IMG/VR virus record: IMGVR_UViG_3300010403_000038
Coordinates: 1-39,939 of that record
DNA length: 39,939 nucleotides
DNA from: a virus
Direction: 5' to 3' (one strand)
In this document: piece after piece, positions 23,192-38,197 of the stretch
Position numbering within the stretch: the first letter of the stretch is position 1
Layout: each line of letters opens with the position of its first letter
The notes under the pieces: generated by a model
What the model was told of the DNA's origin: nothing
The model's database searches: none
What the model saw: the letters and a program-made list of their open reading frames with translations, nothing else
Program-made: the position numbers and the translations under genes

Positions 23192-24111
23192 TCGGCGCTC
23201 CGAGCCCAGCGCGGGAGCGAGACCATCTCGCACACGGGCGAGTAGCCCGGCCACGAAGCCTCGCGCTCGCAGTACGCGTACAGGGCGAGCGCGTCGTCGT
23301 TGTCCTGGCGTGCGATGTCGCGGGTCTCGCCATCGAGCTCGACGACGCGGCAGGCGAAGGGATACGTCGACTCGACGAAGGCGAAGATGAAGCCCGCGAC
23401 CGGCGCGCCGGTGATCTGCTCGACGCCGCGCGAGTACCAGTCGGCTTGATGGTGGTAGCCGTAGCGCGCGATCGTGTTCTCCACGACCGAGAGACTGCTC
23501 GCGTCCTTCGTCGTCTTCACGTCGAGCACCATCGAGGCCGGCGCGGTCGCGGTACCGAAGAGCCGGTTCAGGCAGTCCGGACGGCACCGGCAGAGAACCC
23601 CGGTTACGGGGTCGCGCCAGTACCCCGAGACCTCGAACTCCCCCCCGTCGAGGATCTCAGCGACGTCCGCCAAGTTACGCAGCGCGGCGGCCTGCGCGTG
23701 CGCGACTTCGCGCTGCTTGCGCGTGATCGCCTGCCGGGGCTTGGCCTCCTCGACGAAGGTCTTCCACGCGGTGGAGTTCTTGTTCAGCGTCGGGCCGACG
23801 ACATAGCGCTGGTCGAAGGCCTCGGGCTCCAGCGTCGCGCAGTGGCAGAGCGTGCCGGCGAAGAGCGCCGCGCGTTCCTCGGCATCGTCCTCGACGAGCA
23901 GCCACTCGGGCACTGCGAGGTGGTTCCACGCGTGGTAGTGCCAGGGCGATTTCCGCAGCAGCTTCAGGCCCGAGTTCGAGAGGCCAGGGCCGTGCTGGTA
24001 CTCGGAGTTGGACAGGCCGCGAACGAAACCGAGCGGCCAATTTCGAGTTCCCGAAACGCTGTTTTCGTGTTGGGCAATGACCTCCTGCGAAGTCAATTCT
24101 GTGTCCGACAT
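23188..24111 (-). CDS. RecE-like PDDEXK exonuclease (exodeoxyribonuclease VIII type)
   Basis: 307 residues from ATG 24111 (GGAGA 8 bases upstream). Motifs of the phage PDDEXK exonuclease family are visible: LSNSGLKLLRKSPWHYH at the N-terminus, AALFAGTLCHCATLEPE, RCRPDCL (metal-binding Asp) and MVLDVKTTKDAS (D-x-K), then YHHQADWYSRG. It should degrade one strand from double-stranded ends to feed the annealing protein. It is the first gene of the operon and faces the Cro-like gene across a divergent promoter region. Confidence 0.88.
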   Translation of the reverse strand: MSDTELTSQEVIAQHENSVSGTRNWPLGFVRGLSNSEYQHGPGLSNSGLKLLRKSPWHYHAWNHLAVPEWLLVEDDAEERAALFAGTLCHCATLEPEAFDQRYVVGPTLNKNSTAWKTFVEEAKPRQAITRKQREVAHAQAAALRNLADVAEILDGGEFEVSGYWRDPVTGVLCRCRPDCLNRLFGTATAPASMVLDVKTTKDASSLSVVENTIARYGYHHQADWYSRGVEQITGAPVAGFIFAFVESTYPFACRVVELDGETRDIARQDNDDALALYAYCEREASWPGYSPVCEMVSLPRWARSAE

Positions 24112-24148
24112 TCGGGTGTCTCCGGTCTCGCGAAGTTCAGGGGGGCGA

Positions 24149-24184
24149 GTTAGCGACCGGTGCAATGCAGATGTCAAGTTGCAC
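24149..24184 (-). promoter_or_regulatory. Promoter of the recombination operon with overlapping inverted repeat
   Basis: On the minus strand a perfect -35, TTGACA (24177-24172), is followed after 17 bases by GCTAAC (24154-24149), a weak -10. The repeat GTGCAA (24160-24165) and TTGCAC (24179-24184) encloses the -35 box, so a bound regulator would block it. The Cro-like protein coded just to the right is the obvious candidate. Confidence 0.5.
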
Positions 24185-24407
24185 TGCGATACATGCGTTG
24201 GGAAAAATCTTATTCGAGGTCAAAAAAATGGCAAACCAAGGTTACGCGAACTGTCGACTTTCGCTGCCGCATCGATACGAGGGAAGGCGACGCGCGCGGC
24301 GTCGGACTGCTGTAAAAAAAGGCATGCGGTTTCGCCGGAAAAAAAGGCCAAAACGTCAATCTCCGATTTGCGGAAAAAAAAATTTCGGCGCCTACTTCCA
24401 ACCCACC
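24185..24407 (+). promoter_or_regulatory. Divergent regulatory region with spaced A-tracts
   Basis: About 220 bases before the likely Cro start. Four A-tracts of 7-9 bases (near 24222, 24315, 24340 and 24374) in GC-rich surroundings suggest bent DNA or binding sites. The cro frame stays open back to 24165 and contains ATG 24228 with GAGGT upstream, so a basic 60-residue N-terminal extension could be made. No clear plus-strand promoter is visible. Confidence 0.4.
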
Positions 24408-24773
24408 ATGCTGAAGTCCATCGCCATCAAGATGCTCGGCGCGACCACCGACGAGGCGGGTCGTCGAGTCGGCTGTTCGGGTGCGGCCATTCGCAAGTGG
24501 CCCGACGAGCTGCCCCCGCGCCTCGTCGATCGCGTCATCGCCGCGGCCGTGCGCGCGCAGTTCGAGCGCACAACGGTCTCGGCGCTGACCGGGCGGATCA
24601 CCTTACCGCCCGAGCTCTTCGCGTACCTGTGGCACGAGACGCTGATGGCGCGCGCCGAACGGGCGCGCAAGTTCGACGCCGAGGCCCTCGCGCGACGCAT
24701 CGCCGAGCATCGCGAGGCCAAGCTCGCGAAGCAGCGACCCCAGGCTCGTCAGGCAACCCCGGCCGCGGGGTAA
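24408..24773 (+). CDS. Cro-like helix-turn-helix regulator
   Basis: 121 residues if started at ATG 24408. The first 45 residues (IAIKMLGATTDEAGRRVGCS, AAIRKWPDELPPRLVDRV) have the Cro/YdaS plan, whose usual text is '..lfGs...aA..lgvs..av.kWp.elP..l.drv'. The rest is helical and basic. As the first plus-strand gene opposite the recombination operon, it sits where lambdoid phages have cro. No strong ribosome-binding site precedes ATG 24408; an upstream in-frame ATG at 24228 has GAGGT and would add 60 mostly basic residues. Family comparison favours the shorter form. Confidence 0.7.
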   Translation: MLKSIAIKMLGATTDEAGRRVGCSGAAIRKWPDELPPRLVDRVIAAAVRAQFERTTVSALTGRITLPPELFAYLWHETLMARAERARKFDAEALARRIAEHREAKLAKQRPQARQATPAAG

Positions 24774-24789
24774 GCCGAAAGGCCGAGCG

Positions 24790-25623
24790 GTGGCTCGATC
24801 CCGCAACATCAAGCCCGGGTTCTTCGAGAACGAAGTGCTCGCCGAGTGCGGCCCGTGGGCGCGCCTGTGCTTCGCTGGGCTGTGGACGCTCGCCGATCGC
24901 GAAGGCCGTCTCGAAGATCGGCCCAAGCGCATCAAGGGCGAGCTCTTTCGTTTCGACGCGGTCGAGGTCGAGCCGCTCCTCGACGAGCTCGCGTCTCACG
25001 GCTTCCTGCTGCGCTACCGCAACGATGAGGGCGCGTTCATCCAGATCCTGGCCTTCGCGAAGCACCAGAGCCCGCACTACTCCGAGCGGCCGAGCTCGAT
25101 CAAGCCCCCCGGACTCCAGGAGTCCTCTCGGAGTTCGGAGGCCACATACGACGACGAAATTCCAGGAGTAGTCCTGGAGGACTCCAGGAGCACTCCTGGA
25201 GTCGACCAGGAGGACACCGAGAGAACTCCTGGGTTTACCCCGTCATTAAGAGGGGGTCGTAACCCCCTGATTCCTGATTCCGGATTCCTGATTCCTGATT
25301 CCGGATTCCTGATTCCTGATGAAGACAGCGGATCGCCGCGTTGCGTCGACCCGCCGACCCCGCCGCCCGACTTCGACGGGGAGAACGAAACCGAACTCAA
25401 CGGCAAGGCGATCGTTCGCCTCTCGGTCGAGTGGGGACTGCCCGAGTCGTGGGGGCTCGATGCCGAAGCGCTCGGCTGGCAGCCGCGCGAGGTGATCCGC
25501 GAGGCCGAGAAGTTCCGGCAATACTGGACATCGGGGAAGGGAAAAGGCACGCGGCGCGGGGTGAAGGGGTGGCGGCAGGCGTGGAGCAACTGGCTTCAGA
25601 AGGCGGCGGAGGCAAAGCGATGA
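24790..25623 (+). CDS. Replication initiator, lambda O/DnaT-like, containing the origin
   Basis: 277 residues from GTG 24790 (GAAAGG upstream). The N-terminus (RNIKPGFFENEVLAECG, LWTLADREGRLEDRP) is the winged-helix domain of a common phage replication protein family; the C-terminus (FRQYWTSGKG, then GWRQAWSNWLQKA) matches the end of O/DnaT-like proteins that recruit the host helicase. Residues about 105-180 are low-complexity and coincide with dense DNA repeats, so this part of the gene is probably the origin, as the O gene is in lambda. No helicase loader gene is recognised downstream. Confidence 0.8.
   Translation: MARSRNIKPGFFENEVLAECGPWARLCFAGLWTLADREGRLEDRPKRIKGELFRFDAVEVEPLLDELASHGFLLRYRNDEGAFIQILAFAKHQSPHYSERPSSIKPPGLQESSRSSEATYDDEIPGVVLEDSRSTPGVDQEDTERTPGFTPSLRGGRNPLIPDSGFLIPDSGFLIPDEDSGSPRCVDPPTPPPDFDGENETELNGKAIVRLSVEWGLPESWGLDAEALGWQPREVIREAEKFRQYWTSGKGKGTRRGVKGWRQAWSNWLQKAAEAKR
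25111..25232. repeat. Origin repeat class A: seven copies of a CTCCTGG/CCAGGAG element
   Basis: A 15-base palindrome GGACTCCAGGAGTCC (25111-25125) is followed by further copies of the core, both orientations, at about 25161-25169, 25171-25179, 25181-25190, 25192-25202, 25206-25214 and 25225-25232. Close, mixed-orientation repeats inside an initiator gene are typical initiator-binding sites. Confidence 0.75.
25251..25268. other. Hairpin between the two origin repeat blocks
   Basis: AGGGGGT (25251-25257) pairs perfectly with ACCCCCT (25262-25268) around a 4-base loop CGTA. It separates class A palindromes from class B direct repeats and may form a single-strand structure during origin opening. 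Confidence 0.55.
25268..25320 (+). repeat. Origin repeat class B: seven tandem 7-mers (iterons)
   Basis: Seven head-to-tail copies of (T/G)GATTCC at 25268-25316 plus a partial eighth. The order T,T,G repeats, giving a 21-base higher unit that is also 7 codons, so the protein carries IPDSGFL repeats. The block is AT-richer than its surroundings and is a candidate unwinding element with iterons. Confidence 0.8.
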
Positions 25624-25958
25624 CGAAGCAATCGGCCTACGAACGCGCTCGCGACGAGCGTATCGCCGAGGACGCGGAAGACGACCGCGCGCTCATGTGC
25701 TCGGCGGTAGGGTGCCCGCGTCGCTGGTCGGTGTCGGGCGACCGCGGCCGAGCCTGCTCGGCGCACTACTGGGCCGAACGCGCCGACTGGCCGCGCATTA
25801 CCGAGGCCGTCTTGCGCGCCGAGACCGATCGTGCGCTCGTCGCCGCGGCGAAGCCCGTCGCGCCGGTCTCGGCCGAGCAGAAGGCAGAAGCACTTGCGGC
25901 GCTCGCGAAGTTCGCGGTGCTCGTTCGTACCGGGCAGATCCGGGGGGCGCTGCGATGA
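25620..25958 (+). CDS. Small putative zinc-binding protein
   Basis: 112 residues from ATG 25620, overlapping the initiator stop. A CSAVGCPRRWSV segment and CSAHYW about 18 residues later supply three Cys and one His, a possible zinc site, in the N-terminal half. The C-terminus is Ala-rich and helical (EQKAEALAALAKFAVL). No family named. Coupled to the initiator gene, so a replication role is likely but unproven. Confidence 0.55.
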   Translation: MTKQSAYERARDERIAEDAEDDRALMCSAVGCPRRWSVSGDRGRACSAHYWAERADWPRITEAVLRAETDRALVAAAKPVAPVSAEQKAEALAALAKFAVLVRTGQIRGALR

Positions 25959-26224
25959 GCCTGACCGTCATCGATGTCTTCAAGGCGCTACGGCTCGAAC
26001 CCGACAAGGCGCTGACCTGGGCGGTCGGCGACGCGATGCAGCGTCGATACCGGGAGACGTATGGGCACGAGCCGCCGAAGGAGCTTCGGCCGAAGACGGG
26101 CGGCCCGGGCTCGCACTGCTTCGCGATCTATCCGAACAACTGGCGCGCCGAGATCGAGGCGTGCATCATCGGCCTGGGCGCCGACGCCGCGCGTCAGGTC
26201 GATCTCTTCGCGGAGCGCTCATGA
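25955..26224 (+). CDS. Hypothetical protein of the replication operon
   Basis: 89 residues from ATG 25955 (ATGA overlap). Mixed helical/beta with RRYRETYGHEPPKELRPKT and HCFAIYPNNWRAEIEACI. The text recalls short proteins found between initiator and RusA genes in proteobacterial phages; function unknown. No membrane or signal sequence. Confidence 0.55.
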   Translation: MSLTVIDVFKALRLEPDKALTWAVGDAMQRRYRETYGHEPPKELRPKTGGPGSHCFAIYPNNWRAEIEACIIGLGADAARQVDLFAERS

Positions 26225-26751
26225 GCTCCCGTCTTCAGCTCCCGCAGTTCGACGTGGCGGCGATGCCGGTGCCCGCCGACGCGGTGCGCTTCACCATCCG
26301 CGGCGAGGCGGCGAGTAAGGCCAACAGCCGCGAGCTCGCGACGATCGGGCCGAAGGACAAACGGCGCACGATCCTGCGCAAGAGCGAGAAGGCGATCGAC
26401 TTCGAGGCGTCCGCGATCATGCAAATCCCGGCCTCGGCGCGGCGGATGTTCGCCGGTCTCGTCGCGGTCGAGCTTCGGGTGTACTACGCCTCGATGCGGC
26501 CTGACCTCGATGAGTCGATCGTGCTCGACGTCCTCCAAGCTCGATTCGGTCCCGTCACGAAGGGCCAGCCGCGCCGGCTCGCGCGTCGCGGGGTCTACAT
26601 CAACGACCGACAGGTCTGGCACAAGCGCGTAACGCGCGGCCTGGACGCGAAGAACCCACGTATCGAAGTTACCGTCTGGCCGATCTCGCCCGAGATCGCC
26701 ACGATTCTCGAAGAGGAAAACGATGAACATGCCTCAACCCTTGCCGCCTGA
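26221..26751 (+). CDS. rusA: RusA-type Holliday junction resolvase
   Basis: 176 residues. The acidic catalytic set is visible: RPDLDESIVLDVLQ gives Asp95, Asp97 and Asp103, and YINDRQVWHK gives Asp129; the second-strand basic residues follow. RusA cuts four-way junctions symmetrically; in phages it processes branched DNA from replication and recombination before packaging. The protein is longer than E. coli RusA (120 residues) by an N-terminal 25-residue extension and an acidic C-terminal tail (EEENDEH). Confidence 0.85.
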   Translation: MSSRLQLPQFDVAAMPVPADAVRFTIRGEAASKANSRELATIGPKDKRRTILRKSEKAIDFEASAIMQIPASARRMFAGLVAVELRVYYASMRPDLDESIVLDVLQARFGPVTKGQPRRLARRGVYINDRQVWHKRVTRGLDAKNPRIEVTVWPISPEIATILEEENDEHASTLAA

Positions 26752-27055
26752 CGAGGCAGGTCTACTCGCCGTCGTCGATACGGTACTAGCTGCCAGGGAT
26801 CTCTTCGCGTTACAGGCTTTTGCGCTCGCCGTCGTGGAATACGACGATTCGTCTAACCTCGTCCGTGGCGATCTCCAAGACATCGCTATGGCGTGCGGGC
26901 TATTGAAGCAGGTCACGAAAGTCGCGCCATGCGGTGAGAACTGTTACTGCGCCGATACCGGGCTAGAGGGTCAGGTCGAATGTCTAGAAGATACATCCGT
27001 GCTCAAGCGCGCCTGGATAGCTGTGAAGGAAGCCGATGATCGGAGCACACAATGA
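26723..27055 (+). CDS. Hypothetical protein
   Basis: 110 residues. Overlaps the end of the resolvase gene by 29 bases in another frame; GAGG precedes the ATG. Acidic, helical, with four Cys in the second half (CGENCYC, later a single Cys), which could bind a metal. Base use is slightly less GC-rich than its neighbours, hinting at later acquisition. No family recognised. Confidence 0.5.
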   Translation: MNMPQPLPPDEAGLLAVVDTVLAARDLFALQAFALAVVEYDDSSNLVRGDLQDIAMACGLLKQVTKVAPCGENCYCADTGLEGQVECLEDTSVLKRAWIAVKEADDRSTQ

Positions 27056-27297
27056 CCATGACGCTCGCGAGTCCGCCGCTCGAAGCGCGCCGCGTGACGC
27101 GCTACGGGGACTTCAACCTCGCAACGATGCCCAACCGCCACGGCGGCGGCTTCGTCGCCTGGGCGAAGGTGGGCGAGATCGTCGGGACGAGTCCGCTCGA
27201 CGAGCCGGGCTTCGTGTGGTTCGAGTTCGGCTCAACGCGCGACGAGGCGCGCGATCGACTTCTCGACGAGATCGGCCTGAAGGGGTTCGAGCGATGA
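27052..27297 (+). CDS. Small protein of common phage type
   Basis: 81 residues. The pattern FVAWAKVGEIVGTSPLDE followed by FVWFEFGSTRDEARDRLL resembles HicB-like or single-domain regulators with a 'G.T..eA...l' helix, but no partner toxin is present and it may be unrelated. ATGA overlaps on both sides tie it to the modification block. Function unknown. Confidence 0.5.
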   Translation: MTMTLASPPLEARRVTRYGDFNLATMPNRHGGGFVAWAKVGEIVGTSPLDEPGFVWFEFGSTRDEARDRLLDEIGLKGFER

Positions 27298-27860
27298 CGC
27301 GCGAAGCGAAGCCCGCGAGCCTGACGGTCGAATTTCGCGCGATCGGCGAGCTTGTGCCCTACGCGAATAACGCGAGGACGCACACGCCGGCGCAGATCGC
27401 GCAGATCAAGGCGCTGATGATCGAGTACGGCTGGACGAACCCCGTGCTGGCCGATACGACCGGCATCATCGCGGGGCATGGGCGCGTCCTCGCTGCGCAG
27501 GCGCTCTACGCCGAGGGTAAGGGCCTGCGTCTTCCCGGTGGGCTCGATCTGCCGCTCGGCACCGTCCCGGTGCTCGATTGCACGGGCTGGTCGGACGCGC
27601 AACGCCGGGCGTACATCATCGCGGATAACAAGTCGGCGTTGAACGCCGAGTGGGATGCGTACTTCCTACAAGCCGAGCTGAAAGACCTCGAAGCGCTCGG
27701 CATTGACCTCGCGCTGACCGGCTTCGAGCCGGGCGAGATCGAGGCGCTGTTCGCGACGGGCTCGCCGCCGGACGCCTTCCAGGAGTTCGACGAGCAGATT
27801 ACGACGCACTATCGCTGCCCCAAGTGCCACTTCGAGTGGTCGGGGAAGCCCCATGAATGA
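27294..27860 (+). CDS. ParB/sulfiredoxin-fold nuclease-like protein linked to the methyltransferase
   Basis: 188 residues. The ParB N-terminal motifs are clear: YANNARTHTPAQIAQI, IIAGHGRVLAAQAL (residues 58-71, nucleotide-binding GHGR) and IADNKSALNAEW. The C-terminus ends with half a zinc ribbon (YRCPKC). In phages this domain is often fused to or next to DNA methyltransferases, where it may bind DNA or nucleotide and guide modification. Here it overlaps the methyltransferase gene by 8 bases, so the two are co-translated. It is unlikely to serve in partition, as there is no ParA. Confidence 0.8.
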   Translation: MTREAKPASLTVEFRAIGELVPYANNARTHTPAQIAQIKALMIEYGWTNPVLADTTGIIAGHGRVLAAQALYAEGKGLRLPGGLDLPLGTVPVLDCTGWSDAQRRAYIIADNKSALNAEWDAYFLQAELKDLEALGIDLALTGFEPGEIEALFATGSPPDAFQEFDEQITTHYRCPKCHFEWSGKPHE

Positions 27861-28929
27861 GTCGAAGCCCCCCTACACGATCCCGACGATGCGCGAGATC
27901 CGCGCGCTCGCCTGGAACGGGCGTCGCGTCGTCTCGACCTTCGCCGGTGGTGGTGGCTCGTCCACCGGGTATCGGATGGCGGGTTTTCGCGTCGCCTGGG
28001 CTAACGAGTACGTGCCGGAGGCGCGCGCGACCTACGCGGCGAACTACCCGGAGACGCCGCTCGACGCGCGCGATATCCGCGACGTCCAGGCGCGTGAGAT
28101 CCTCGCGGCGATTGGGCTCGACCAGGGTGAGCTCGACGTCCTCGACGGCTCGCCGCCCTGTGCCTCGTTCTCGACCGCCGGAGCGCGCGATAAGCACTGG
28201 GGACAGGCGCACGCGTATTCGACCGGCGAGGCGCAGGTTACGGACGACCTGTTCTTCGAGTACGTTCGTCTGCTGCGCGGGCTCCAGCCGCGCGCGTTCG
28301 TCGCGGAGAACGTCTCGGGGCTCGTCAAGGGCACGGCGAAGGGGTACTTTAAGGACATCCTCGCCGCACTAACTCAGGCGGGATACGTCGTGCGCTCGCA
28401 GGTACTCGACGCGGCATGGCTCGGCGTGCCGCAGAGGCGCGCGCGGCTGATCTTCGTCGGTGTGCGCCGAGACCTCGCCGAGCGTGGGCTCGCGCCCGCG
28501 TTCCCGACGCCACTCGCCTACCAGTACACGCTACTCGACGCGCTTCCCGAACTCGCCGAGCCCGACCCGCCCGAAGTGACCGCGTCCTACTCGATCGAGC
28601 GCTTCGCGATCGGCGAGGCCTGGAAGACGACGCCCTACGGCGAGAGCAGCGAGCGCTACTTCCAGCTCGTACGCGCGCACCCACATCGACCCGTAAATAC
28701 GATCACGGCGGTCGCCTCGAACCCCGGCGCGGCTTCGGTCACGCACCCCTATCGGCCGCGCAAGTTCACCCGAGAAGAGATCGCGCGCCTGTGCTCATTT
28801 CCCGAGGACTACGTGTTTCCCGGGACGAACGAGAACGCGATCGAGCGTATGGGTCGTGCCGTCCCGCCGCTGATGATGCGAGCCGTTGCGCGCGTGGTCG
28901 AGACGCAGATCCTCGCGAGAGCGACGTGA
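27853..28929 (+). CDS. C5-cytosine DNA methyltransferase variant, candidate carboxymethyltransferase
   Basis: 358 residues, complete. Motif I STFAGGGGSSTGYRMAGF (28-45), motif IV GSPPCASFS with catalytic Cys103, motif VI FVAENVSGL (ENV 152-154), motif VIII QRRAR (194-198) and motif X (329-340). In C5 methyltransferases motif X reads G-N-(A/S)-V-P-P; here it is GRAVPP, with Arg335 (codon 28855-28857) in place of the near-invariant Asn that lies by the cofactor. The change is the one that turns M.MpeI N374K into a carboxy-SAM-using enzyme. The target domain between motifs VIII and IX is short, so the target is probably a short sequence. The next gene encodes a CmoA homologue and overlaps it. 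Confidence 0.88.
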   Translation: MNESKPPYTIPTMREIRALAWNGRRVVSTFAGGGGSSTGYRMAGFRVAWANEYVPEARATYAANYPETPLDARDIRDVQAREILAAIGLDQGELDVLDGSPPCASFSTAGARDKHWGQAHAYSTGEAQVTDDLFFEYVRLLRGLQPRAFVAENVSGLVKGTAKGYFKDILAALTQAGYVVRSQVLDAAWLGVPQRRARLIFVGVRRDLAERGLAPAFPTPLAYQYTLLDALPELAEPDPPEVTASYSIERFAIGEAWKTTPYGESSERYFQLVRAHPHRPVNTITAVASNPGAASVTHPYRPRKFTREEIARLCSFPEDYVFPGTNENAIERMGRAVPPLMMRAVARVVETQILARAT

Positions 28930-29615
28930 TGAAAGCCGAGTACCTCGTCCCGGAGCTGGTCATCCCGGCCGACTGGACGTTTAGAAACGCGAACGTCGCC
29001 GATACCTTTGAGCGGCATGTGCGCGAGCAGCTTCCCTGGTACGAGCTCGCGACGGGTGCTGTCGCGCACGTTGCGCGCCACTATATCGGCGCGGGTGGTC
29101 TGGTCTACGACATCGGGGCCTCGACGGGGAACGTCTCGCGCTCGCTCGCCAAGACGATCGAAGCGCGCGGCGCACGAATAGTCTCGATCGAGTCGAGTGC
29201 CGAGATGGTCGAGCGCTTCGAGGGGTTCGGCGAGATCGAGCTTGCCGACGCGCTCGGCTACGACTTCGAGCCCTTCGACGTCGCGGTAATGTTCCTGACG
29301 CTGATGTTTACGCCGGTCGCCCAACGGCTCGGCTTTCTTCGGCGCCTCTACGCACGAACGAAGCCCGGCGGCGCGCTGATCATCTTCGACAAGACCGAGG
29401 TAGGCATGGGCTACCTCTCGACCGTCTTGCATCGGCTGACGATCGCGGGGAAGGTCGCCACGGGGTGCGACCCGAAGGAGATCATCGAGAAGGAGCTCTC
29501 GCTCGCGGGCGTTCAGCGTCCCCTGAGCTTCTCGTTCATCTCGATGGCCTTGCCGCATAGCGTCGAGGTCTTTCGCTTCGGCGAGTTCGCAGGCTACGTC
29601 ATCGAGGCCCCGTAA
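28929..29615 (+). CDS. CmoA homologue, candidate carboxy-S-adenosylmethionine synthase
   Basis: 228 residues (E. coli CmoA, 247). Shared landmarks in order: DWTF (15-18), LPWY (35-38) where CmoA has P-G-Y, motif I VYDIGASTGN (59-68) for VYDLGCSLGA, SIESSAEMVERF (86-97), FLTLMFTP (122-129) for FTLQFLEP, RLYARTKPGGALIIFDK (139-155), and a C-terminal FxFGEFAGYVI strand. CmoA converts SAM and prephenate to carboxy-SAM, which host CmoB uses on tRNA. No CmoB is coded here. E. coli Arg199, which binds the carboxylate, has no certain match; Arg169 or Lys175 are candidates. TGATG overlap couples it to the methyltransferase. Confidence 0.75.
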   Translation: MKAEYLVPELVIPADWTFRNANVADTFERHVREQLPWYELATGAVAHVARHYIGAGGLVYDIGASTGNVSRSLAKTIEARGARIVSIESSAEMVERFEGFGEIELADALGYDFEPFDVAVMFLTLMFTPVAQRLGFLRRLYARTKPGGALIIFDKTEVGMGYLSTVLHRLTIAGKVATGCDPKEIIEKELSLAGVQRPLSFSFISMALPHSVEVFRFGEFAGYVIEAP

Positions 29616-29619
29616 GGCT

Positions 29620-29919
29620 ATGCCCGGCGATTCGTTCTACACCTCGCTCGCGTGGCGTGCGCTACGGGCGAAGACCCTCCAGGCCGCAGGCTGGCACTGC
29701 GCGTGGTGCGGCGCGTCCGTGCGTCAATCCGGCGCCGCGCGCGTCGACCACATCAAGCCCCGGCGCGACGCGCCCGAGCTCGCCCTCGTCGCGACGAACC
29801 TGCGCGTGCTCTGCTGCGTGTGCGACGCTCGACGCCACGCCGACAAGGGTGGTCGCCTCCACTTGGGTGCTGACGCGAACGGTTGGCCGACTTCGCCGAG
29901 CCACCCATGGAACCGATAG
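29620..29919 (+). CDS. HNH endonuclease of the packaging module
   Basis: 99 residues. Cys27-x-x-Cys30, the RVDHIKP motif with Asp43-His44, Asn60, and Cys65/Cys68 with His73 form a complete zinc-stabilised HNH site. Small HNH proteins coded directly before the terminase genes, like HK97 gp74, are needed with terminase for cos cleavage and packaging. The location next to the small terminase gene fits. It follows the CmoA-like gene after 4 bases. Confidence 0.88.
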   Translation: MPGDSFYTSLAWRALRAKTLQAAGWHCAWCGASVRQSGAARVDHIKPRRDAPELALVATNLRVLCCVCDARRHADKGGRLHLGADANGWPTSPSHPWNR

Positions 29920-30044
29920 AAGGGGGCTATCGGCAGGGGGGGAGAGACCCGTTTGCGTGGGTGTCTCTCGAACCAGAGTCCTCAGGTCTTTGCGCACGAG
30001 CGCGTATTCCACCCATTTTCCGTTCTTAATAGCTAGGAGCTATC
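29920..30044. other. Intergenic region before small terminase; candidate cos site
   Basis: 125 bases between the HNH and small terminase genes. It holds a G-rich run (29924-29942), an imperfect hairpin (GAGAGA-C-CC pairing with GGG-TG-TCTCTC at about 29942-29968) and AT-rich DNA before the GTG start. In HK97-like phages cos lies here. The exact cut site cannot be read from sequence. Confidence 0.4.
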
Positions 30045-30536
30045 GTGCCACCCGGAGTCAAGCCCAAGCCCCTCGCGCTCCACGTCGTCGAGGGCAACCT
30101 GAAAAAGATGGCGAAGCCGCGCCGCGAGAAGCACGAAAACAGTCCCCAGCCGTCGCTGGAGTTGAGAGGCCCTCCCGAGACGTTCAACGACGATCAGCGC
30201 GCGATCTGGGCCCGTTTGCAGGAGGATTGCGCCGTTGGGCTCCTCGCGCGTTCGGACTACGACATCCTCGTCAGCTACGTGCTACTGGTCGCCGCGCGCG
30301 ACAAGGCGATGAAACTCTTCATCGAGACCGGCTGTCAGGTACTCGTTAAGTCCAACGACTCAAACAACCGCATGCTCTCCAACCCCCTGATGCGCGAGAT
30401 CCGCCGCGTCCTAGAGCAGCTTCGCCCGCTACAGGTCGAGCTCGGCCTCACGCCCATGTCGCGCTCGCGTATCCAGGTCGCGAAGGCCCCGGAGGAGGAG
30501 GACGAGCTTGGGCGCTTCCTCACCCCCTCCGCGTAA
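30045..30536 (+). CDS. terS: Terminase small subunit, P27 family
   Basis: 163 residues from GTG 30045, with AGGAG 6 bases upstream. The P27 pattern is seen: an N-terminal GVKPKP and LHVVEGNLKK, then PPETFNDDQRAIWARL, then long helices (YDILVSYVLLVAARDKAM) and a C-terminal NPLMREIRRVLEQLRP. It binds the packaging site and regulates the large subunit. It overlaps the large subunit gene by 29 bases. Confidence 0.9.
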   Translation: MPPGVKPKPLALHVVEGNLKKMAKPRREKHENSPQPSLELRGPPETFNDDQRAIWARLQEDCAVGLLARSDYDILVSYVLLVAARDKAMKLFIETGCQVLVKSNDSNNRMLSNPLMREIRRVLEQLRPLQVELGLTPMSRSRIQVAKAPEEEDELGRFLTPSA

Positions 30537-32244
30537 CAGGCCAGCTCCCGTCGCCCGCCGCTGGCGCGACCCCGTCAGCCGCTACGCGCAGGCCGTCGTC
30601 TCGCGCCGCCTCCTCGCCGGCCCGCATGTCCGCGCCGCCTGCGCGCGCCACCTCGATGATCGACTCCACGCGCACGAGCGCGGCTGGACGTTCGACCTCG
30701 CCCTCGCCCAGCGCGCGCTCGACTTTTTCCCCGAAGTCCTCCGCCTCAACGCCGGGGAGTTCGAGGGCAAGCCCTTCCACCTCTCGCCCTGGGAAGCGTT
30801 CATCGTCGGCTCGCTGTTCGGCTGGCACGACGCCGAGGGCGCGCGCCGCTTTCGCGTCGCCTACGTCGAGACGGGCAAGGGCTCGGGGAAGTCGCCGCTC
30901 GCCGCGGGGATCGGGCTCCTCATGATGATCGCCGACGGCGAGGCGCGCTCCGAGGTTTACGCCGCCGCGTCGAAAAAGGATCAGGCGATGATCCTCTTCC
31001 GCGACGCCGTCGCGATGGTGCAGCAGTCGCCCGCGCTCTCCAAGCGCATCCGTCTCATCGGCGGCGTCGCCCCGTGGAACATGGTCTTCCGCGACTCGTT
31101 CTTCCGCCCGATCGCCGCCGACGACAAGCAGAGCGGCCCGCGCCCGCACTGCGGCCTTATCGACGAGATGCACGAGCACAAGGACGATACCGTCGTCGAG
31201 ATGATGCGCGCGGGCTTCAAGGGCCGGCGCTCGCCGCTCATGTTCATGATTACCAACGCGGGCGTCGATCGCCAGAGCGTGTGCTGGCGCTACCACGACC
31301 GCGCGATCAAGATCGCCGAGCGCATGCTCGACGACGATCGTTTCTTCGCCTACGTTTGCGCGCTCGACTCCGGCGAAGACCCGCTCCACGACGAGCGCTG
31401 CTGGCCGAAGACGAACCCGAACTTGGGCGTCAGCATCCGCGCCGACTACCTGCGCGATCAGGTCCTCGAAGCGCGCCAGATGCCGGGCAAGGAGTCCGTC
31501 GTCCGGCGCCTCCACTTCTGCCAGTGGGTCGACGCGTCGAGCCCCTGGATCTCGGGCGAGTCGTGGCGCGCCTGCGAGCGCACGCCGTCCGAGCCGTTCG
31601 TCTCGCGCTTCGCAGGCGCGCGCGTCACGCTCGCGGTCGACCTCTCGACCACGACCGACCTCACCGCGCTCGCGCTCGTCGTTGAAATCGAGGGCCGACT
31701 CTTCGCCGCCGTCGAGTTCTTCACGCCGGCCGACACGATGCGCAGCCGCGGCGAACGCGACGGCGTCGACTACGCGCTGTGGGCGCGCCAGGGCTACATC
31801 CACGCCGTTCCTGGCTCGACGCTCGAATACGGGCCGGTCGCCGCGCGTATTGCCGAGCTCGCCGAGGTCTTCGATATCGCCGAGCTCGTCTTCGATCGCT
31901 ACCGTATGAGCTACTTGAAGCGCGAGCTCGAAGAGATCGGCCTCATGCTCCCGCTCACCGAGCACCCGCAGACGTTCGTCAAGCCGCGCTCCTCGGCGCT
32001 GTGGATGCCCCAGTCGATCAACGAGCTCGAAGGCGCGATCATGCGCTCGGAGATCGAGATCGACCGTAACCCGTGCCTCACCTGGGCTGCCGCGAGCGCC
32101 GTCTGCGAGACTGACCTCCACCAGTCGCGCATCTTTTCCAAGCGCAAGGCCACGGGCCGGATCGACGGGCTCGTCGCTCTCGCGATGGCCGTCGGCGCCC
32201 GGCGCGCCCCGAGCTTGGTCAACGTCGGCGCGATGGTCGCCTAG
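30508..32244 (+). CDS. terL: Terminase large subunit, HK97-type
   Basis: 578 residues from TTG 30508, whose ribosome-binding site is a repeated GGAGGAGGAGG just upstream. Walker A ETGKGSGKS (121-129), Walker B LIDE (217-220), coupling motif region ITN (248-250), and a nuclease domain with LAVDLS (Asp378), FDRY (Asp463) and a late acidic segment. It is the ATPase that drives DNA into the head and the nuclease that cuts the concatemer. The HK97-type (Terminase_1) architecture is consistent with cos packaging. Confidence 0.95.
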   Translation: MGASSPPPRNRPAPVARRWRDPVSRYAQAVVSRRLLAGPHVRAACARHLDDRLHAHERGWTFDLALAQRALDFFPEVLRLNAGEFEGKPFHLSPWEAFIVGSLFGWHDAEGARRFRVAYVETGKGSGKSPLAAGIGLLMMIADGEARSEVYAAASKKDQAMILFRDAVAMVQQSPALSKRIRLIGGVAPWNMVFRDSFFRPIAADDKQSGPRPHCGLIDEMHEHKDDTVVEMMRAGFKGRRSPLMFMITNAGVDRQSVCWRYHDRAIKIAERMLDDDRFFAYVCALDSGEDPLHDERCWPKTNPNLGVSIRADYLRDQVLEARQMPGKESVVRRLHFCQWVDASSPWISGESWRACERTPSEPFVSRFAGARVTLAVDLSTTTDLTALALVVEIEGRLFAAVEFFTPADTMRSRGERDGVDYALWARQGYIHAVPGSTLEYGPVAARIAELAEVFDIAELVFDRYRMSYLKRELEEIGLMLPLTEHPQTFVKPRSSALWMPQSINELEGAIMRSEIEIDRNPCLTWAAASAVCETDLHQSRIFSKRKATGRIDGLVALAMAVGARRAPSLVNVGAMVA

Positions 32245-32256
32245 GCGTCGATCAGA

Positions 32257-32286
32257 TTGACACGCGTGATCGATCAGACGAACAAT
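32257..32286 (+). promoter_or_regulatory. Candidate promoter for the capsid gene
   Basis: Perfect TTGACA (32257-32262), 18-base spacer, AACAAT (32281-32286, four of six to consensus). It lies 12 bases after the large terminase stop inside a 247-base non-coding gap that contains no convincing gene. The repeat CGATCAGA occurs on both sides of the -35 box. Confidence 0.45.
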
Positions 32287-32491
32287 CGAGCCCGAACCGG
32301 ATAAACCCGACCCGGCGCGATGCTCAGCGACGCGCGCGCCACGGTGCCGCCTCTTCCGACGAGGGCGCACCATCTCATGATCCCGTCCGTCGCCCGTACG
32401 CGACCCGGCAAGGCCGAGCGTCAAGCGCAGCGCGAGCGTACGGGGCCGCTTTCCCCCTCGACCCCGATAAATCCGGCCCGCCAGGGCAACG

Positions 32492-34630
32492 GTGCGCCCG
32501 GCCATGCCCGCACCGGCCAGCGCTAGCCTCATCCGCGTCGAAAAGCGCGGGGGTCTTCCGGTCGCGCCGAGCTCCGCGCTCGGCCTACTCGGCGCGCACA
32601 CGATCGTCGACGATCAGATCCGGTTTCGCATCAGCAGCGAAGACCTCGACTACTACGGCGACGAAGTCGTCCAGGCCGGACTCGAATTTCCGGCGCAGCT
32701 CCCCGCAGTCGCCGATCACTCGCACACGCTCGACGCCTCGATCGGCGAGTGGCTCCACGTTGAGCGCGCGGGCCGCGAGACCTTCGCGACGCTCCGGCTG
32801 TTGCCCCTCGGCAAATCGCGCGGCGCCGATCTCGTCCGCGCGCTCCACGAGGGCGGCTTTCCGCTCGCCTCGTCGGTCAATTTCGACATCCACCCCTCGG
32901 ACATCGAGCCGATCACGCGCTCGGGTCCCGACGGCAAACCCCGGCGCGGCAAGCGCTACCGGCGCGGCAAGGTCGTCGAAGTCACGCTCACGCAATTCCC
33001 GGCGAACCCGGCGGCCATCGCCGTCGCGCGCTCGCTCGGGTTCTCAGACGACGAGGTCGGCGCGCTGTCGCGCACTCGGCCCCCCTCGCCGTCCCTCGCT
33101 CGCACCACTACGGCTGTCGCCGGTGCGCCCCCGAAGCCAACCACCATGACACTCGCCGAAATGATCGCCGCCGCGCAGGCGGCACACGAGGCCGCGCTCG
33201 CAACGCAGGCCACCGCCATCGCGACGCTCGAAGCCGATTCGGGCGAGGCGAACATGACCGCCGTCGCGCGCGCGACCTCCGAGGCCGACGCGCTCTTCGC
33301 GCGCCTGACCACGCTGCGCGCGGCCGAGACCGCCGCGACGCGGCGCGCCGCCGCCGCGCCGGCCCCCGCGCCCGCGCCCGCGCCGACGAGCTCCGTCTCA
33401 CGCGACCGAGCGAACGCCGCCGGAGACAACCGCTCGGCCGGCCTTCTGACCGAGCGCGGCGACCCCGAGGCCCCGGTCGGCTCGCGGCTCGCGCGGCTTG
33501 TAATGGCCGTCTCCGTCGCGCGCTCGACGCGGCGCAACTTCGTCGACGTCGCTGCCGAGCTCTTCGCGAGCGATCGCGATCGCGAGCTCATCAACGTCGC
33601 GCGCGCCGCCGTCGGCGCTGCCGATACGACGACCGCAGGATGGGCCGCGGAGCTCGTTCGTACCGAGACGCGCGCGCTACTCGACGCGACGCTCAACCCG
33701 AACTCGATCTGGCCGGCGCTCGCCGCGGCGGGCACCTCGTTGAATTTCAACGGCGCGCACTCGGTCGTCATCCCGCAGATGAACATCGGGACGACCGTCG
33801 GCGGCGCCTGGGTCGGCGAGGGCGGCGTCATCCCGCTCGTCAAGGGCTCGTTCGGCTCGAAGCGGCTCTACGCGTACAAGCTCGCGGGGATCATCCCGAT
33901 CACCAAGGAGCTCCAGCGCACGAGCGACCCGCAAGCCGTCGCGGTCATGAGCGAGATGCTCCGGCAGTTCCTCTCGAACCTGCTCGACGCGTCGATGATC
34001 GACGCCTCGGCCGAGGTCACCGGCGTTCGTCCGGCAGGTCTTCTCAACGGCGTCACGCCGATCGCCGGCGCCGCGGGCGGCGGCTACGAGGCGCTGCGCG
34101 CCGACCTCGAAGCCGTAACGAACGCGTTCACCGCGGCCGGCGTCGGCAACGGCAAGAACGTTCTACTCGTACCGGCGTCAAAGGCGTTCCGACTCTCGAC
34201 GATGGTCAACGCGCTCGGGCAGCTCATCTTTCCAAATGGCAGCGGTACGGTACTCGGCTTCCAGACGATCCCCTCGCAGTTCGTCGCAGCGAACACGGCG
34301 ATCGCCGTCGCGGCCGATAAGTTCGCGAGCGCGATCGACCCGCCCGAGCTCGATTCGAGCGAGGAGGCGACGCTCACCATGGCCGACGCGGGCGCAGCAG
34401 CGCCGACGCAGGCCGGCGACGCGGCAGGGGGTGGCGCGCTCGGTACCGCGAAGCAAGTCATCCCCGACGGCGGGATTCCGGTGGCGGGCGGCGCAGGCGC
34501 CTCGACGACGGGCTACACGGCGCTCTCGCTCTTCCAGTCGTGGCTCATCGGCCTGCGGCTCGTCATCCCGGCGAGTTACGGCGTGACGCGCGCAGGCGCA
34601 GTGCAGCAGCTCACGGGGATCACATGGTAG
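32492..34630 (+). CDS. Prohead protease - major capsid protein fusion (HK97 fold)
   Basis: 712 residues from GTG 32492; ATG 32504 is an alternative. Residues 25-195 form an S78-type prohead protease: FRISSEDLDYYGD, AVADHSH with His76, FPLASSVNF with Ser127/128, and the VTLTQFPANPAA strand. Residues about 196-335 are Ala/Pro-rich and helical like a scaffold (delta) domain. From about 345 the HK97 major capsid protein follows (LVRTETRALLDATLNP, WVGEGGVIPLVKGSFG, KLAGIIPITKELQ). The protease should cut itself and the scaffold away during maturation. An internal in-frame ATG at 33146 could give scaffold-capsid alone. Confidence 0.92.
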   Translation: MRPAMPAPASASLIRVEKRGGLPVAPSSALGLLGAHTIVDDQIRFRISSEDLDYYGDEVVQAGLEFPAQLPAVADHSHTLDASIGEWLHVERAGRETFATLRLLPLGKSRGADLVRALHEGGFPLASSVNFDIHPSDIEPITRSGPDGKPRRGKRYRRGKVVEVTLTQFPANPAAIAVARSLGFSDDEVGALSRTRPPSPSLARTTTAVAGAPPKPTTMTLAEMIAAAQAAHEAALATQATAIATLEADSGEANMTAVARATSEADALFARLTTLRAAETAATRRAAAAPAPAPAPAPTSSVSRDRANAAGDNRSAGLLTERGDPEAPVGSRLARLVMAVSVARSTRRNFVDVAAELFASDRDRELINVARAAVGAADTTTAGWAAELVRTETRALLDATLNPNSIWPALAAAGTSLNFNGAHSVVIPQMNIGTTVGGAWVGEGGVIPLVKGSFGSKRLYAYKLAGIIPITKELQRTSDPQAVAVMSEMLRQFLSNLLDASMIDASAEVTGVRPAGLLNGVTPIAGAAGGGYEALRADLEAVTNAFTAAGVGNGKNVLLVPASKAFRLSTMVNALGQLIFPNGSGTVLGFQTIPSQFVAANTAIAVAADKFASAIDPPELDSSEEATLTMADAGAAAPTQAGDAAGGGALGTAKQVIPDGGIPVAGGAGASTTGYTALSLFQSWLIGLRLVIPASYGVTRAGAVQQLTGITW

Positions 34631-34776
34631 CCGTCGCGCTCCTCGTCCTGCTGCTCGTCGCGTTCGTCGCGTTCGTACTCGCCGCGGCCGGGGTCGTCCA
34701 CTCGCGCGTCCAGCTCGTGCCGCTCGGCCTTGCGGCTTGCACGCTCGCCGTCCTCCTGCGCCTGTGGCCACCTTAA
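34624..34776 (+). CDS. Small membrane protein, 50 residues
   Basis: Starts at ATG 34624, inside the end of the capsid gene. Nearly all hydrophobic: ALLVLLLVAFVAFVLAAAG and LVPLGLAACTLAVLLRL form two predicted transmembrane helices. Too short for most holins but not excluded. It is coupled to the most highly translated gene and lies just before a terminator. Function unknown. Confidence 0.5.
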   Translation: MVAVALLVLLLVAFVAFVLAAAGVVHSRVQLVPLGLAACTLAVLLRLWPP

Positions 34777-34846
34777 TCGACGCGCGCGCTCCTGCGCGTG
34801 GCATGACCTCCGAGCTCAACCCAGCAGTTGCCGCGAAGGGGTTTCA

Positions 34847-34876
34847 CCCCCGGCCTCAAGCGCCGGGGGGATTTTT
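34847..34876 (+). terminator. Rho-independent terminator after the capsid gene
   Basis: Stem CCCCCGGC (34847-34854) with GCCGGGGG (34862-34869), 7-base loop, then a G-A and TTTTT (34872-34876). It lies between the capsid cluster and the rest of the structural operon and would reduce read-through, keeping capsid mRNA levels higher than portal and tail. Confidence 0.8.
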
Positions 34877-34898
34877 CTGAAAGAAGGGGCGCCCGACC

Positions 34899-35486
34899 AT
34901 GGCCCAGGCGATCTACCTCACCGACCCGGCCGTCGCGGCGGCCTACCACGTCTACCAGGGCGAATGGGCGAGCGTGACCGACGAGGCCGAGGCCGCGTGG
35001 CTCATCGCGAACCATCACGGCTACCCGATCGACGCGCAACGCGCGATGCCCGCCCCGGGCTTCGTTCACCCGGACGCCCCCTTGCCCTTCGTCCCCTATG
35101 CGGGGCCGGCGCCGCCGGTCGATCGCCCCTCGACGGTCACGGTCACGATCACGCCCGGCGCGCCCGGCGTCTTCGACGTCACCTTCGGCGGCGTCGCCGA
35201 TACAGCCGAGGCAACGGGGCATTTCACGATCCAAGACGACACCAGCGCGACGCTCGCCGACGTCACCTACACGCAACCCGCGGCGACCACGCTCAGCGGA
35301 TCGGCCGCCGCGCTGAACACAGCGCTCGCGCCCCACGCGCCGCCGCTCGTCCTGACGAAAGTCGGTGCGGTTCTCACGATCACCGGCACGAACCCGCCGA
35401 CCGTTGCGAGCGTGGTCGGCACACTCACCGTCCCCGCAGCGCCCGTCGCGGCGCGCCGACCAATCCTGCGTAGGCGGTCGCCATGA
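34899..35486 (+). CDS. Hypothetical virion protein with Ig-like C-terminal region
   Basis: 195 residues, GAAAGAAGGGG before ATG 34899. The N-terminal 60 residues are mixed helical (PAVAAAYHVYQGEWA, EAAWLIANHHGYP). Residues about 77-180 are Thr/Val/Gly-rich and all-beta (STVTVTITPGAPGVFDVTFG, VLTKVGAVLTITGT), like the Ig-like domains that decorate capsids or tails. Position after the capsid gene suggests a head decoration protein. Basic C-terminus (RRPILRRR). Confidence 0.5.
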   Translation: MAQAIYLTDPAVAAAYHVYQGEWASVTDEAEAAWLIANHHGYPIDAQRAMPAPGFVHPDAPLPFVPYAGPAPPVDRPSTVTVTITPGAPGVFDVTFGGVADTAEATGHFTIQDDTSATLADVTYTQPAATTLSGSAAALNTALAPHAPPLVLTKVGAVLTITGTNPPTVASVVGTLTVPAAPVAARRPILRRRSP

Positions 35487-35737
35487 GCGGCGCGCCGGTC
35501 GTCGTCTACGCGTTCGATCCGCTCGCGGACGGGGCCGTCGGGATGCTCGTCGTCTCGGCCGATCGCGCCGCACGACTCGTCGCCGAGCACCGCGTCGAGC
35601 TCGTGGGCGAGCATATCCACGCGCCGCTGCGCTTCGTCGTCGGCTCGGCCGCGAACGTCGCCGCGCGTGATGCGCTGCGCGTCGCCCGCGCGAGCTTGCC
35701 GCGCCCGCGCAAGGTCGCGCGCGTCGAGCAAGCTTGA
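35483..35737 (+). CDS. Hypothetical small protein of the head module
   Basis: 84 residues. ATGA overlap with the preceding gene. An alpha/beta profile (VVVYAFDPLADGAVGMLVVS, then ADRAARLVAEHRVEL) and a basic C-terminus (SLPRPRKVAR). No family recognised. Just before the portal gene, it could be a minor head component or an assembly factor; neither is shown. Confidence 0.5.
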   Translation: MSGAPVVVYAFDPLADGAVGMLVVSADRAARLVAEHRVELVGEHIHAPLRFVVGSAANVAARDALRVARASLPRPRKVARVEQA

Positions 35738-35747
35738 AGCCCCCACC

Positions 35748-37226: not shown

Positions 37227-38197
37227 TGACGCCCGAAGAGCGCGCCGGGATGGCCGCGGCGATCAACGAAGCGATCGCACTCGGCTGCGCCGCCGTGCGC
37301 GAGGCGTGCGCGCGCGAACTCGCGGACGTTCGGCGCTCGACGGCCGAGGAGCTCGCCGCGGTACGCGCGCACGCCCAGCGCGCCGACGAGCGCGCCGAGG
37401 CGCTCCAGCGCGAGCTCGACGCGACGCGCGAGCTCGCCGCGCAGGCGCCGATTCAGACGATGCTCGTCGACGCCGTGGGGGATCTCCACGTCGTGCAGCG
37501 TGGGGGCGTCACGACGACAGCGAACCTCGCAGCGCTCGGCACTCGGATCGCCGCCGCAGTCGACTCCGGCGTTGGCGCACTCGGCGCGAGCCTCCGCGCC
37601 GAGGTCGGCGCGCACGTCGCGCGCGAGGTGATGCGCTTCGGCAGCGCCCCGCGCTGGAGCCGTAGCGCGTTCTACGGTGAGGGCGCCGTCGTCTCGTGCT
37701 ACAACGGCCGCACCTACGAGCTCGCGCCCGGCACGCGCGCGTCGATCGCGCAGGAGCCGGGCGAGCACCCCGAGGTCTGGCAGCGCATCGGCTCGCACGG
37801 TCTGCGCGTGATGAAGTCCAAGCCCGCGGTTCCCGAGCCGGGCGACGTCTACACCGAGGGCGAGTCGCGTTTCATCTTCGACGGCGAGACGACGACGCTC
37901 TTCGTCCCGCGCGCGACCAAGCAAAGCGACATCGACCGCAGCTTCAAGGCCGCGAACTCGCTCGCCGCATCGGCGTTCGAGCACGCGACGCGCGCCGAGC
38001 GCATGGCCGAGAGCCACGAGGCGCGGCTCGACGTAGTCGAGCGCGAGGCGTCGAACAATGCGCTGTGGATCGCCGAGGAAGGCGAAGCCGCCGTCCTGCG
38101 TTCCGCGACGACCGAGGCCTGGGTCGCCGAGCGCGCCGACGAGATCGACGCGGCGCTCCTCGACCTGCCGCAGCCCGAGGGGGCGAGTGCATCATGA
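37223..38197 (+). CDS. Head-module protein with coiled coil and CBM5/12-like domain
   Basis: 324 residues. Residues 1-75 form an Ala/Glu/Arg coiled coil (VRREACARELADV type heptads are clear throughout). Residues about 145-190 (FYGEGAVVSCYNGRTYEL, later PEVWQRIGS) resemble the chitin-binding CBM5/12 fold: a 'G..V.y.g..Y.a....PG..p..W' pattern. The last 100 residues are helical again. It lies between portal and head-tail connector genes and overlaps the portal gene by ATGA. It may be a minor head or decoration protein able to bind glycans; this is inference. Confidence 0.5.
   Translation: MMTPEERAGMAAAINEAIALGCAAVREACARELADVRRSTAEELAAVRAHAQRADERAEALQRELDATRELAAQAPIQTMLVDAVGDLHVVQRGGVTTTANLAALGTRIAAAVDSGVGALGASLRAEVGAHVAREVMRFGSAPRWSRSAFYGEGAVVSCYNGRTYELAPGTRASIAQEPGEHPEVWQRIGSHGLRVMKSKPAVPEPGDVYTEGESRFIFDGETTTLFVPRATKQSDIDRSFKAANSLAASAFEHATRAERMAESHEARLDVVEREASNNALWIAEEGEAAVLRSATTEAWVAERADEIDAALLDLPQPEGASAS

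Follow-up and report, generated by a model that had tools for sequence, protein, structure and literature searches.

A compact CmoA-CmoX gene unit in a phage genome, predicted to make 5-carboxymethylcytosine, and a candidate second class of carboxy-SAM user

What do three overlapping genes at positions 27294-29615 of the viral record IMGVR_UViG_3300010403_000038 (IMG/VR) do to the DNA of the phage that carries them? The window analysed here is this whole record, 39,939 bases, which is linear and may be a fragment or incomplete. The genes encode a ParB-like protein, a cytosine C5-methyltransferase (C5-MTase) homologue and a homologue of CmoA, the synthase of carboxy-S-adenosylmethionine (carboxy-SAM, Cx-SAM). 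A sequence-only reading had described them as overlapping, with a complete-looking C5-MTase, and had proposed that the CmoA homologue makes carboxy-SAM, from which the C5-MTase would form 5-carboxymethylcytosine (5cxmC). Open reading frames and family matches bear out the layout, and we consider it very probable, on the sequence evidence given below, that the genes are a CmoA-CmoX DNA modification unit making 5cxmC in phage DNA. The features are as follows.

27294-27860, plus strand: ParB-like gene (PHROG 620), ATG start, 188 residues; first gene of the ParB-CmoX-CmoA unit
27853-28929, plus strand: C5-MTase, homologue of the CmoX-type DNA cytosine C5-carboxymethyltransferase, ATG start, 358 residues
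28150-28161, plus strand: SPPC motif, CmoX residues 100-103, from DNA and alignment; the catalytic Cys103 corresponds to Cys98 of SpCmoX (CmoX of Synechococcus phage S-B43)
28855-28857, plus strand: codon of CmoX Arg335, aligned with SpCmoX Arg350 and M.HhaI Asn304
28929-29615, plus strand: CmoA-like (carboxy-SAM synthase) homologue, ATG start, 228 residues

The end of the ParB-like gene overlaps the start of the MTase gene by 8 bases, and the MTase stop and CmoA start codons share one base (TGATG, 28927-28931). The MTase matches Pfam DNA_methylase (E 2.7e-56) and NCBIfam dcm (6e-50); the letters of what we take to be the C5-MTase motifs (FxGxG, SPPC, ENV, QxRxR and GR) are all present, and the protein looks complete. 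The G-R motif already pointed out is real and reads GRAVPP, including R335. Its best PDB match is 8yf3, the structure of SpCmoX (E 6.7e-66), followed by M.HaeIII (2.8e-23).

SpCmoX is the first natural DNA cytosine C5-carboxymethyltransferase, described by Yang et al. (Nat Commun, December 2025; PMC12783734), a report that overtook the earlier remark that no natural example was known. According to its text, carboxy-SAM is the product of the S-B43 CmoA, and 5cxmC that of CmoX, a homologue of C5-MTases; Arg350, at the position of M.HhaI Asn304, contacts the carboxymethyl group of Cx-SAM, and the wild-type enzyme accepts carboxy-SAM only and refuses SAM. The same text names natural-product biosynthesis and CmoX itself as users of carboxy-SAM, so that CmoB is no longer the only established one, as had been stated. 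It also describes 5,615 CmoX candidates, defined by SPPC and R350 and drawn partly from IMG/VR, whose contigs hold 4,257 CmoA, 2,251 ligase and 1,660 ParB-domain sequences (PMC12783734); the present record may be among them.

The window MTase carries the two published signatures of CmoX: SPPC and an Arg that binds the carboxylate. In the alignment, its F30, E52, Y53, D74, SPPC 100-103 and R335 correspond to SpCmoX positions 25, 47, 48, 69, 95-98 and 350; most of the published Cx-SAM-binding positions (F30, E52, D74 and the Arg) are kept, with Tyr53 replacing Phe48. The equivalent of Arg350 is present in seven of seven CmoX proteins, those of the window and of six named CmoA-encoding phages (S-B43, Mcat8, TurkishDelight, PaBG, S-CRM01 and pEa_SNUABM_5, the last with CmoA about 17 kb away). 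It was also found in 72 of the 73 C5-MTases taken as best match in loci L006-L109; the sole exception (L094_185_1180), an ordinary MTase, has Asn, and the CmoA of its locus adjoins a different gene, the PMT treated below.

An ordinary 5-methylcytosine (5mC) MTase would be the simplest alternative, the CmoA homologue serving host tRNA (in making uridine-5-oxyacetic acid, cmo5U) or some other use and its adjacency being incidental. The window MTase does belong to Pfam DNA_methylase, and 661 phage records have a C5-MTase match. However, eight control C5-MTases from seven phage stretches, hand-picked from a 45-row listing and with no CmoA in flanks of 3-5 kb, have Asn (five), Met (two) or Leu (one) at the Arg335 position and never Arg; the Asn at the HhaI N304 position, which marks an ordinary 5mC C5-MTase, is replaced by Arg in the window protein, and wild-type SpCmoX bearing the equivalent Arg refuses SAM (PMC12783734). 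In addition, the record has no CmoB match and no tRNA gene, and the pair is conserved across loci, as shown in the next paragraph. The residue at the Arg335 position and the link to CmoA led us to reject an ordinary restriction-modification or orphan 5mC MTase, and the absence of a CmoB match and of tRNA genes in the record led us to reject a tRNA cmo5U role of the phage CmoA; we regard this alternative as highly improbable. A depletion of GpC, as the footprint of a GC-specific enzyme, was not seen in the window (observed/expected 1.17), which gives no sign either way.

The recurrence of the pair in other phages had been predicted, and it was found from both directions. A search of viral contigs with the window CmoA gave 71 loci, and a search of genome contigs with the window-CmoA alignment gave 33; a genome-contig scan with the window CmoA sequence alone confirmed none of 82 candidates. 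Profile hidden Markov models (HMMs) retain the CmoA match in 70 of the 71 viral and all 33 genome-contig loci, the latter from organisms including Alphaproteobacteria, Verrucomicrobia, Vibrio, Photobacterium and Desulfovibrionaceae. Within 5 kb, the distance also used for the counts that start from CmoX and from PMT, CmoX accompanies CmoA in 73 of these 103 loci, PMT in 22, neither in 8, and both in none. Starting from CmoX, the best 80 viral loci contain CmoA (74), a ParB-like gene (67), CmoY, the follow-on ligase of the S-B43 system (22), and no PMT within that distance. The ParB-like gene usually stands directly upstream of CmoX in related loci. In three of the loci inspected, the stretch between CmoX and CmoA holds genes for Ala/Lys-rich proteins on the other strand (L021:1833-2282, L033:5363-5833 and L063:4938-5852, minus strand).

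The eight loci with neither partner were inspected as whole records. In L047 and L048 the contig also carries a full PMT farther off, and in L095 and L108 it carries a CmoX (62% and 55%) beyond 5 kb. The genome of L105 has a full PMT on another contig, and its own CmoA looks broken; L109 looks broken, and L030 is a 4.6-kb fragment that opens with a CmoY remnant. A recurring third partner of CmoA was rejected, and only L093 stays unexplained. In this Polynucleobacter bastaniensis contig (L093:1751-9241), a window-type CmoA lies in a cluster that does not look phage-like, beside large proteins, with no PMT in the genome and no CmoX nearby; it is possibly a third use of carboxy-SAM.

The CmoA-like protein matches NCBIfam CmoA (TIGR00740, E 8.7e-17), and its best matches in a PDB sequence search are the CmoA proteins of E. 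coli and H. influenzae (1im8, there named YecO); PHROG 4752 (E 1.4e-47) is among the matches of the unit's proteins. An AlphaFold2 model built from 49 sequences, with a mean predicted local distance difference test score (pLDDT) of 87.4, has the CmoA fold: E. coli CmoA (4gek) came first in the fold comparison (Z 26.0, 214 aligned residues, root-mean-square deviation (rmsd) 2.3), followed by 1im8 (25.9) and 4iwn (25.4). The protein belongs to a clade with its own motifs (consensus HVREQLPWY, KELSLxGVQRP and EVFRFGEF), of which HVR..LPWY, KE....G.QRP and F....F.G are invariant in 49 aligned clade sequences.

Several points weigh against the assignment of the two enzymes. The TIGR00740 score is 61.6 bits, below the equivalog cut-off of 193.3, and for this reason the protein is named here a phage CmoA homologue and not a bacterial equivalog; the CmoA homologues of phages Evaa, HJ05 and SM1 are likewise under the cut-off. 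In the fold comparison, CysG/BelI methyltransferases scored nearly as high (Z 23.9 vs 26.0). Identity is only about 21-24% to assayed CmoA enzymes and about 39% between the window CmoX and SpCmoX; the Tyr at the Phe48 position of the latter is found in none of 73 other loci. E. coli CmoA Arg199, which binds the cofactor carboxylate, aligns with Glu189 of the window protein.

The changed residues raise the alternative that window-type CmoA makes a different SAM analogue and that CmoX transfers that group. Besides Glu for Arg199, Asp154 stands at the position of E. coli CmoA Glu164, the window has FLTLMF where E. coli has NFTLQF, the clade has conserved motifs of its own, and no clade member is reported as assayed in the text consulted. 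However, the Arg199 equivalent is Glu in the active SpCmoA in the same alignment and Ala in the TurkishDelight CmoA, so Arg199 is not defining for phage CmoA, and SpCmoA is active with both Arg199 and Asn132 missing from it in the alignment. Glu164 is the proposed general base of CmoA, and Asp is described as the only alternative residue there, in the account that also assigns carboxylate binding to Arg199 (PMC3663124). The partner CmoX keeps the carboxylate-binding Arg, and TurkishDelight-type and window-type CmoA are each found beside CmoX and CmoY. A different analogue therefore seems improbable, and carboxy-SAM is retained as the predicted product.

Gene structure, homology, active-site residues and conserved linkage are established for the window unit; both enzyme activities, the target sequence and a benefit to the phage are inferred. 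CmoA would convert host SAM and prephenate to carboxy-SAM; CmoX would flip cytosines out at its target sites, Cys103 would attack C6, and the carboxymethyl group would be moved to C5. Arg335 would grip the carboxylate of the cofactor, and we propose that carboxy-SAM is chosen over SAM because of this contact. The earlier proposal is supported by analogy, since it matches the S-B43 mechanism and the published signatures are present. The ParB-like protein (PHROG 620, E 1.8e-42; no Pfam match at 1e-3), which has a C-terminal CxxC, is probably a DNA-clamp or targeting partner. In phage DNA, 5cxmC should keep host restriction enzymes from cutting, in the way that the 5cxmC of SpCmoX blocks HhaI (PMC12783734).

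Is bare 5cxmC then the end product? In S-B43 the follow-on ligase CmoY adds glycine, and only the glycyl form was detected according to the published text (PMC12783734). An HMM built from seven CmoY proteins found no CmoY-type ligase in the 39.9-kb record, which may be incomplete, and no Asn_synthase (PF00733), RimK (PF08443) or AMP-binding (PF00501) match was found in it. CmoY is absent within 5 kb of CmoX in 101 of 143 CmoX loci with CmoA, and in 70 of 101 after removal of near-copies, shares that are upper bounds because many contigs are short and the loci reach contig ends. In Mcat8 and Synechococcus phage S-CRM01, CmoX adjoins CmoA and no CmoY was found by HMM within 5 kb. On a quick tree of 101 CmoX proteins, 23 changes of the CmoY label are counted, of which well-supported branches force at least 8; shuffles of the label give a mean of 26.8, and 24 of 500 were as low as observed. 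The ligase is thus an add-on often gained and lost, which makes bare 5cxmC plausible as a final product; because no CmoY-type ligase was found in the record, the unligated base is the likeliest end product predicted for this phage, unlike S-B43.

The same data bear on the alternative that 5cxmC is only an intermediate, to whose carboxylate an unrecognised, host or off-record ligase adds an amine, as CmoY adds glycine in S-B43. The 2,251 ligase sequences on contigs of CmoX candidates (PMC12783734) favour it, as do label changes only slightly fewer than in shuffles and a linear record that a ligase could lie outside. The lack of a match to CmoY and the three other ligase families in the 39.9 kb and the many loci with no CmoY found, Mcat8 and S-CRM01 included, speak against it, and we consider it rather unlikely, if the most serious of the alternatives. 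Unligated 5cxmC is retained as the predicted product. Such a compact form could reveal if bare 5cxmC works as an end product in its own right instead of serving only as a handle; the window unit also represents an independent confirmation, from raw sequence, that natural 5cxmC systems are widespread in phages, to which it adds a compact form in which no ligase was found.

Window-type CmoA also occurs without CmoX, in a conserved operon with the order ParB, PMT, HAD-like and CmoA. PMT is a fusion, about 500 residues long, of ParB_N and a class I methyltransferase (PHROG 5475, function unknown, matched by all three members tested), and it lies upstream of CmoA in 22 of the 30 window-type CmoA loci without CmoX within 5 kb. 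Four of the operons are located as follows.

L014, 29-3175: PMT-CmoA operon
L110 (Gordonia phage Evaa), 1-3952: PMT-CmoA operon
L111 (Aeromonas phage HJ05), 1032-3382: PMT-CmoA operon
L112 (Pseudomonas phage SM1), 6211-9292: PMT-CmoA operon

A model of the L014 PMT (mean pLDDT 86.9) combines two domains, a CTP-binding one of the ParB type (7bnr, Z 11.7; 91 residues at rmsd 1.3) and one with the class I methyltransferase fold (METTL6, Z 13.6; 193 residues at rmsd 3.4), with glycine N-methyltransferase close behind (12.4). A motif-IV-like SVLNSVP stretch is present; the (D/N/S)PP(Y/F/W) motif was found in none of 101 PMTs, and PMT is not a C5-MTase. Clustering at 90% identity reduces these 101 aligned PMTs, gathered from every source, to 50, and the loci are therefore not all independent. 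In a search that started from PMT, and so was not selected for CmoA, the best 80 of 249 viral relatives have a CmoA homologue (79), a HAD-like gene (76) and a ParB-like gene (73), with CmoX or CmoY within 5 kb of none of these 80. At least 80% of PMT is covered in 14 records of named phages, each with a CmoA homologue that, by position, lies no more than about 1 kb away: Evaa, HJ05 and 12 Pseudomonas phage records that are nearly identical, among them SM1, a Samunavirus. The gene order is ParB-PMT-hypothetical-HAD-CmoA-terminase in Evaa; in HJ05 PMT and CmoA come first, then two genes with no family match above cut-off and a DAHP synthase. PHROG 32036 is matched by the HAD-like genes of both L014 and Evaa, and no HAD-like gene was found by HMM in the operon stretches of HJ05 and SM1.

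Arg232, Arg352 and Lys415 (L014 numbering) are invariant in the 101 PMTs; the distant ParB-MTase fusions of Brochothrix phage BtpYZU02 and Bacteroides phage BS-TP3 are without them and have no CmoA in flanks of 4 kb, which with two controls is no more than a hint. Fusions of ParB with Methyltransf_23 have been reported as more frequent in phages and of unknown function (PNAS 2025; PMC12704722), in a paper whose main text does not contain the words CmoA and carboxy. A preliminary search mentioned by Yang et al. gave no CmoA-linked N6-adenine or N4-cytosine carboxymethyltransferase (PMC12783734). Literature searches, with bioRxiv and most subscription papers outside their range, found no published link between PMT and CmoA.

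We take PMT to be a candidate for a second class of enzymes that use carboxy-SAM, one that does not belong to the C5-MTases. The fuller proposal, for which we see the chances as evenly balanced, is that PMT uses the carboxy-SAM of window-type CmoA to carboxymethylate DNA elsewhere than at cytosine C5; the HAD-like protein would then act on either the product or the cofactor. DNA is suggested as the substrate because PMT has a ParB domain, occurs in phages and takes the place of CmoX; the target may instead be RNA or protein. If true, natural DNA carboxymethylation would exist in a second form, and phages would make another unknown base. This lead may matter more than the window unit itself, and the operon is present in a cultured phage, Gordonia phage Evaa.

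A DAHP synthase, the first enzyme of the shikimate pathway and upstream of prephenate, is encoded in the PMT-CmoA cluster of HJ05 (L111:6257-7420). It could raise the supply of the CmoA co-substrate, a link that is weak because 209 phage records match this enzyme, the 60 listed being mostly from enterobacterial phages of about 170 kb.

Other C5-MTases with SPPC and a different residue at the Arg350 position were also observed. The one of Methylophilales phage Melnitz (L117:82-6194) has Leu; genes for DNA polymerase B and for a RimK-like ATP-grasp protein lie close by, another of the latter is annotated just upstream, and no CmoA was found in the stretch. This locus is possibly another unusual cytosine modification. 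Those of Flavobacterium phage Fpv11 (L114:4929-5996) and Cellulophaga phage phi18:3 (L115:4932-6011) have Met at the Arg350/Asn304 position.

Downstream of the window unit are the following genes.

29620-29919, plus strand: HNH endonuclease gene, adjoining the terminase genes; a neighbour outside the modification unit
30045-30536, plus strand: terminase small subunit
30508-32244, plus strand: terminase large subunit

Elsewhere the record encodes tape-measure, tail and portal proteins, a serine recombinase, an exonuclease VIII-like protein and a replication initiator, which point to a tailed, probably temperate phage. The eight best matches of the large terminase (about 56%) are all Salmonella and Klebsiella phages, and a megablast search of 50,697 phage records gave no near-identical phage for window positions 24000-38000. 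A GH5 cellulase-like protein (above the Pfam cut-off) and a weak CBM5/12 match (below it) lie at 11742-12773 (minus strand) and 37223-38197 (plus strand).

Compared with known systems, the window unit is a compact member of the already published CmoA-CmoX kind, in which no ligase was found. As in S-B43, CmoA is clustered with a C5-MTase homologue in which SPPC and the carboxylate-binding Arg are both present, and 8yf3 is the best PDB match of the window homologue. The window unit differs in order (CmoA-CmoY-CmoX in S-B43, ParB-CmoX-CmoA here, led by the ParB-like gene), in the absence of a detected CmoY from the record, and in sequence, with about 39% identity for CmoX and about 21% for CmoA. 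Moraxella phage Mcat8 (KR093632, annotated 'hypothetical protein') shares the ParB-CmoX-CmoA order, the overlapping genes, the terminase just downstream and the lack of a CmoY detected by HMM within 5 kb, and its CmoX and CmoA are each 47% identical to those of the window; another small hypothetical gene lies between CmoA and the large terminase, replacing HNH and the terminase small subunit. Streptomyces phage TurkishDelight (gp122-125) also has ParB, CmoX and CmoA, with ParB and CmoX overlapping and a CmoX 49% identical, but an asparagine-synthetase-like protein, annotated as a glutamine amidotransferase domain, lies between CmoX and CmoA, and its CmoA is only 28% identical. The engineered M.MpeI N374K, named in PMC12783734, is a C5-MTase that can use carboxy-SAM once its Asn is exchanged for a basic residue; that residue is an introduced Lys, whereas the window CmoX has a natural, conserved Arg. 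The E. coli CmoA/CmoB pathway to tRNA cmo5U34 shares the CmoA fold and the carboxy-SAM logic, but the window record has no CmoB match, and the predicted user of carboxy-SAM in this phage is a homologue of DNA C5-MTases.

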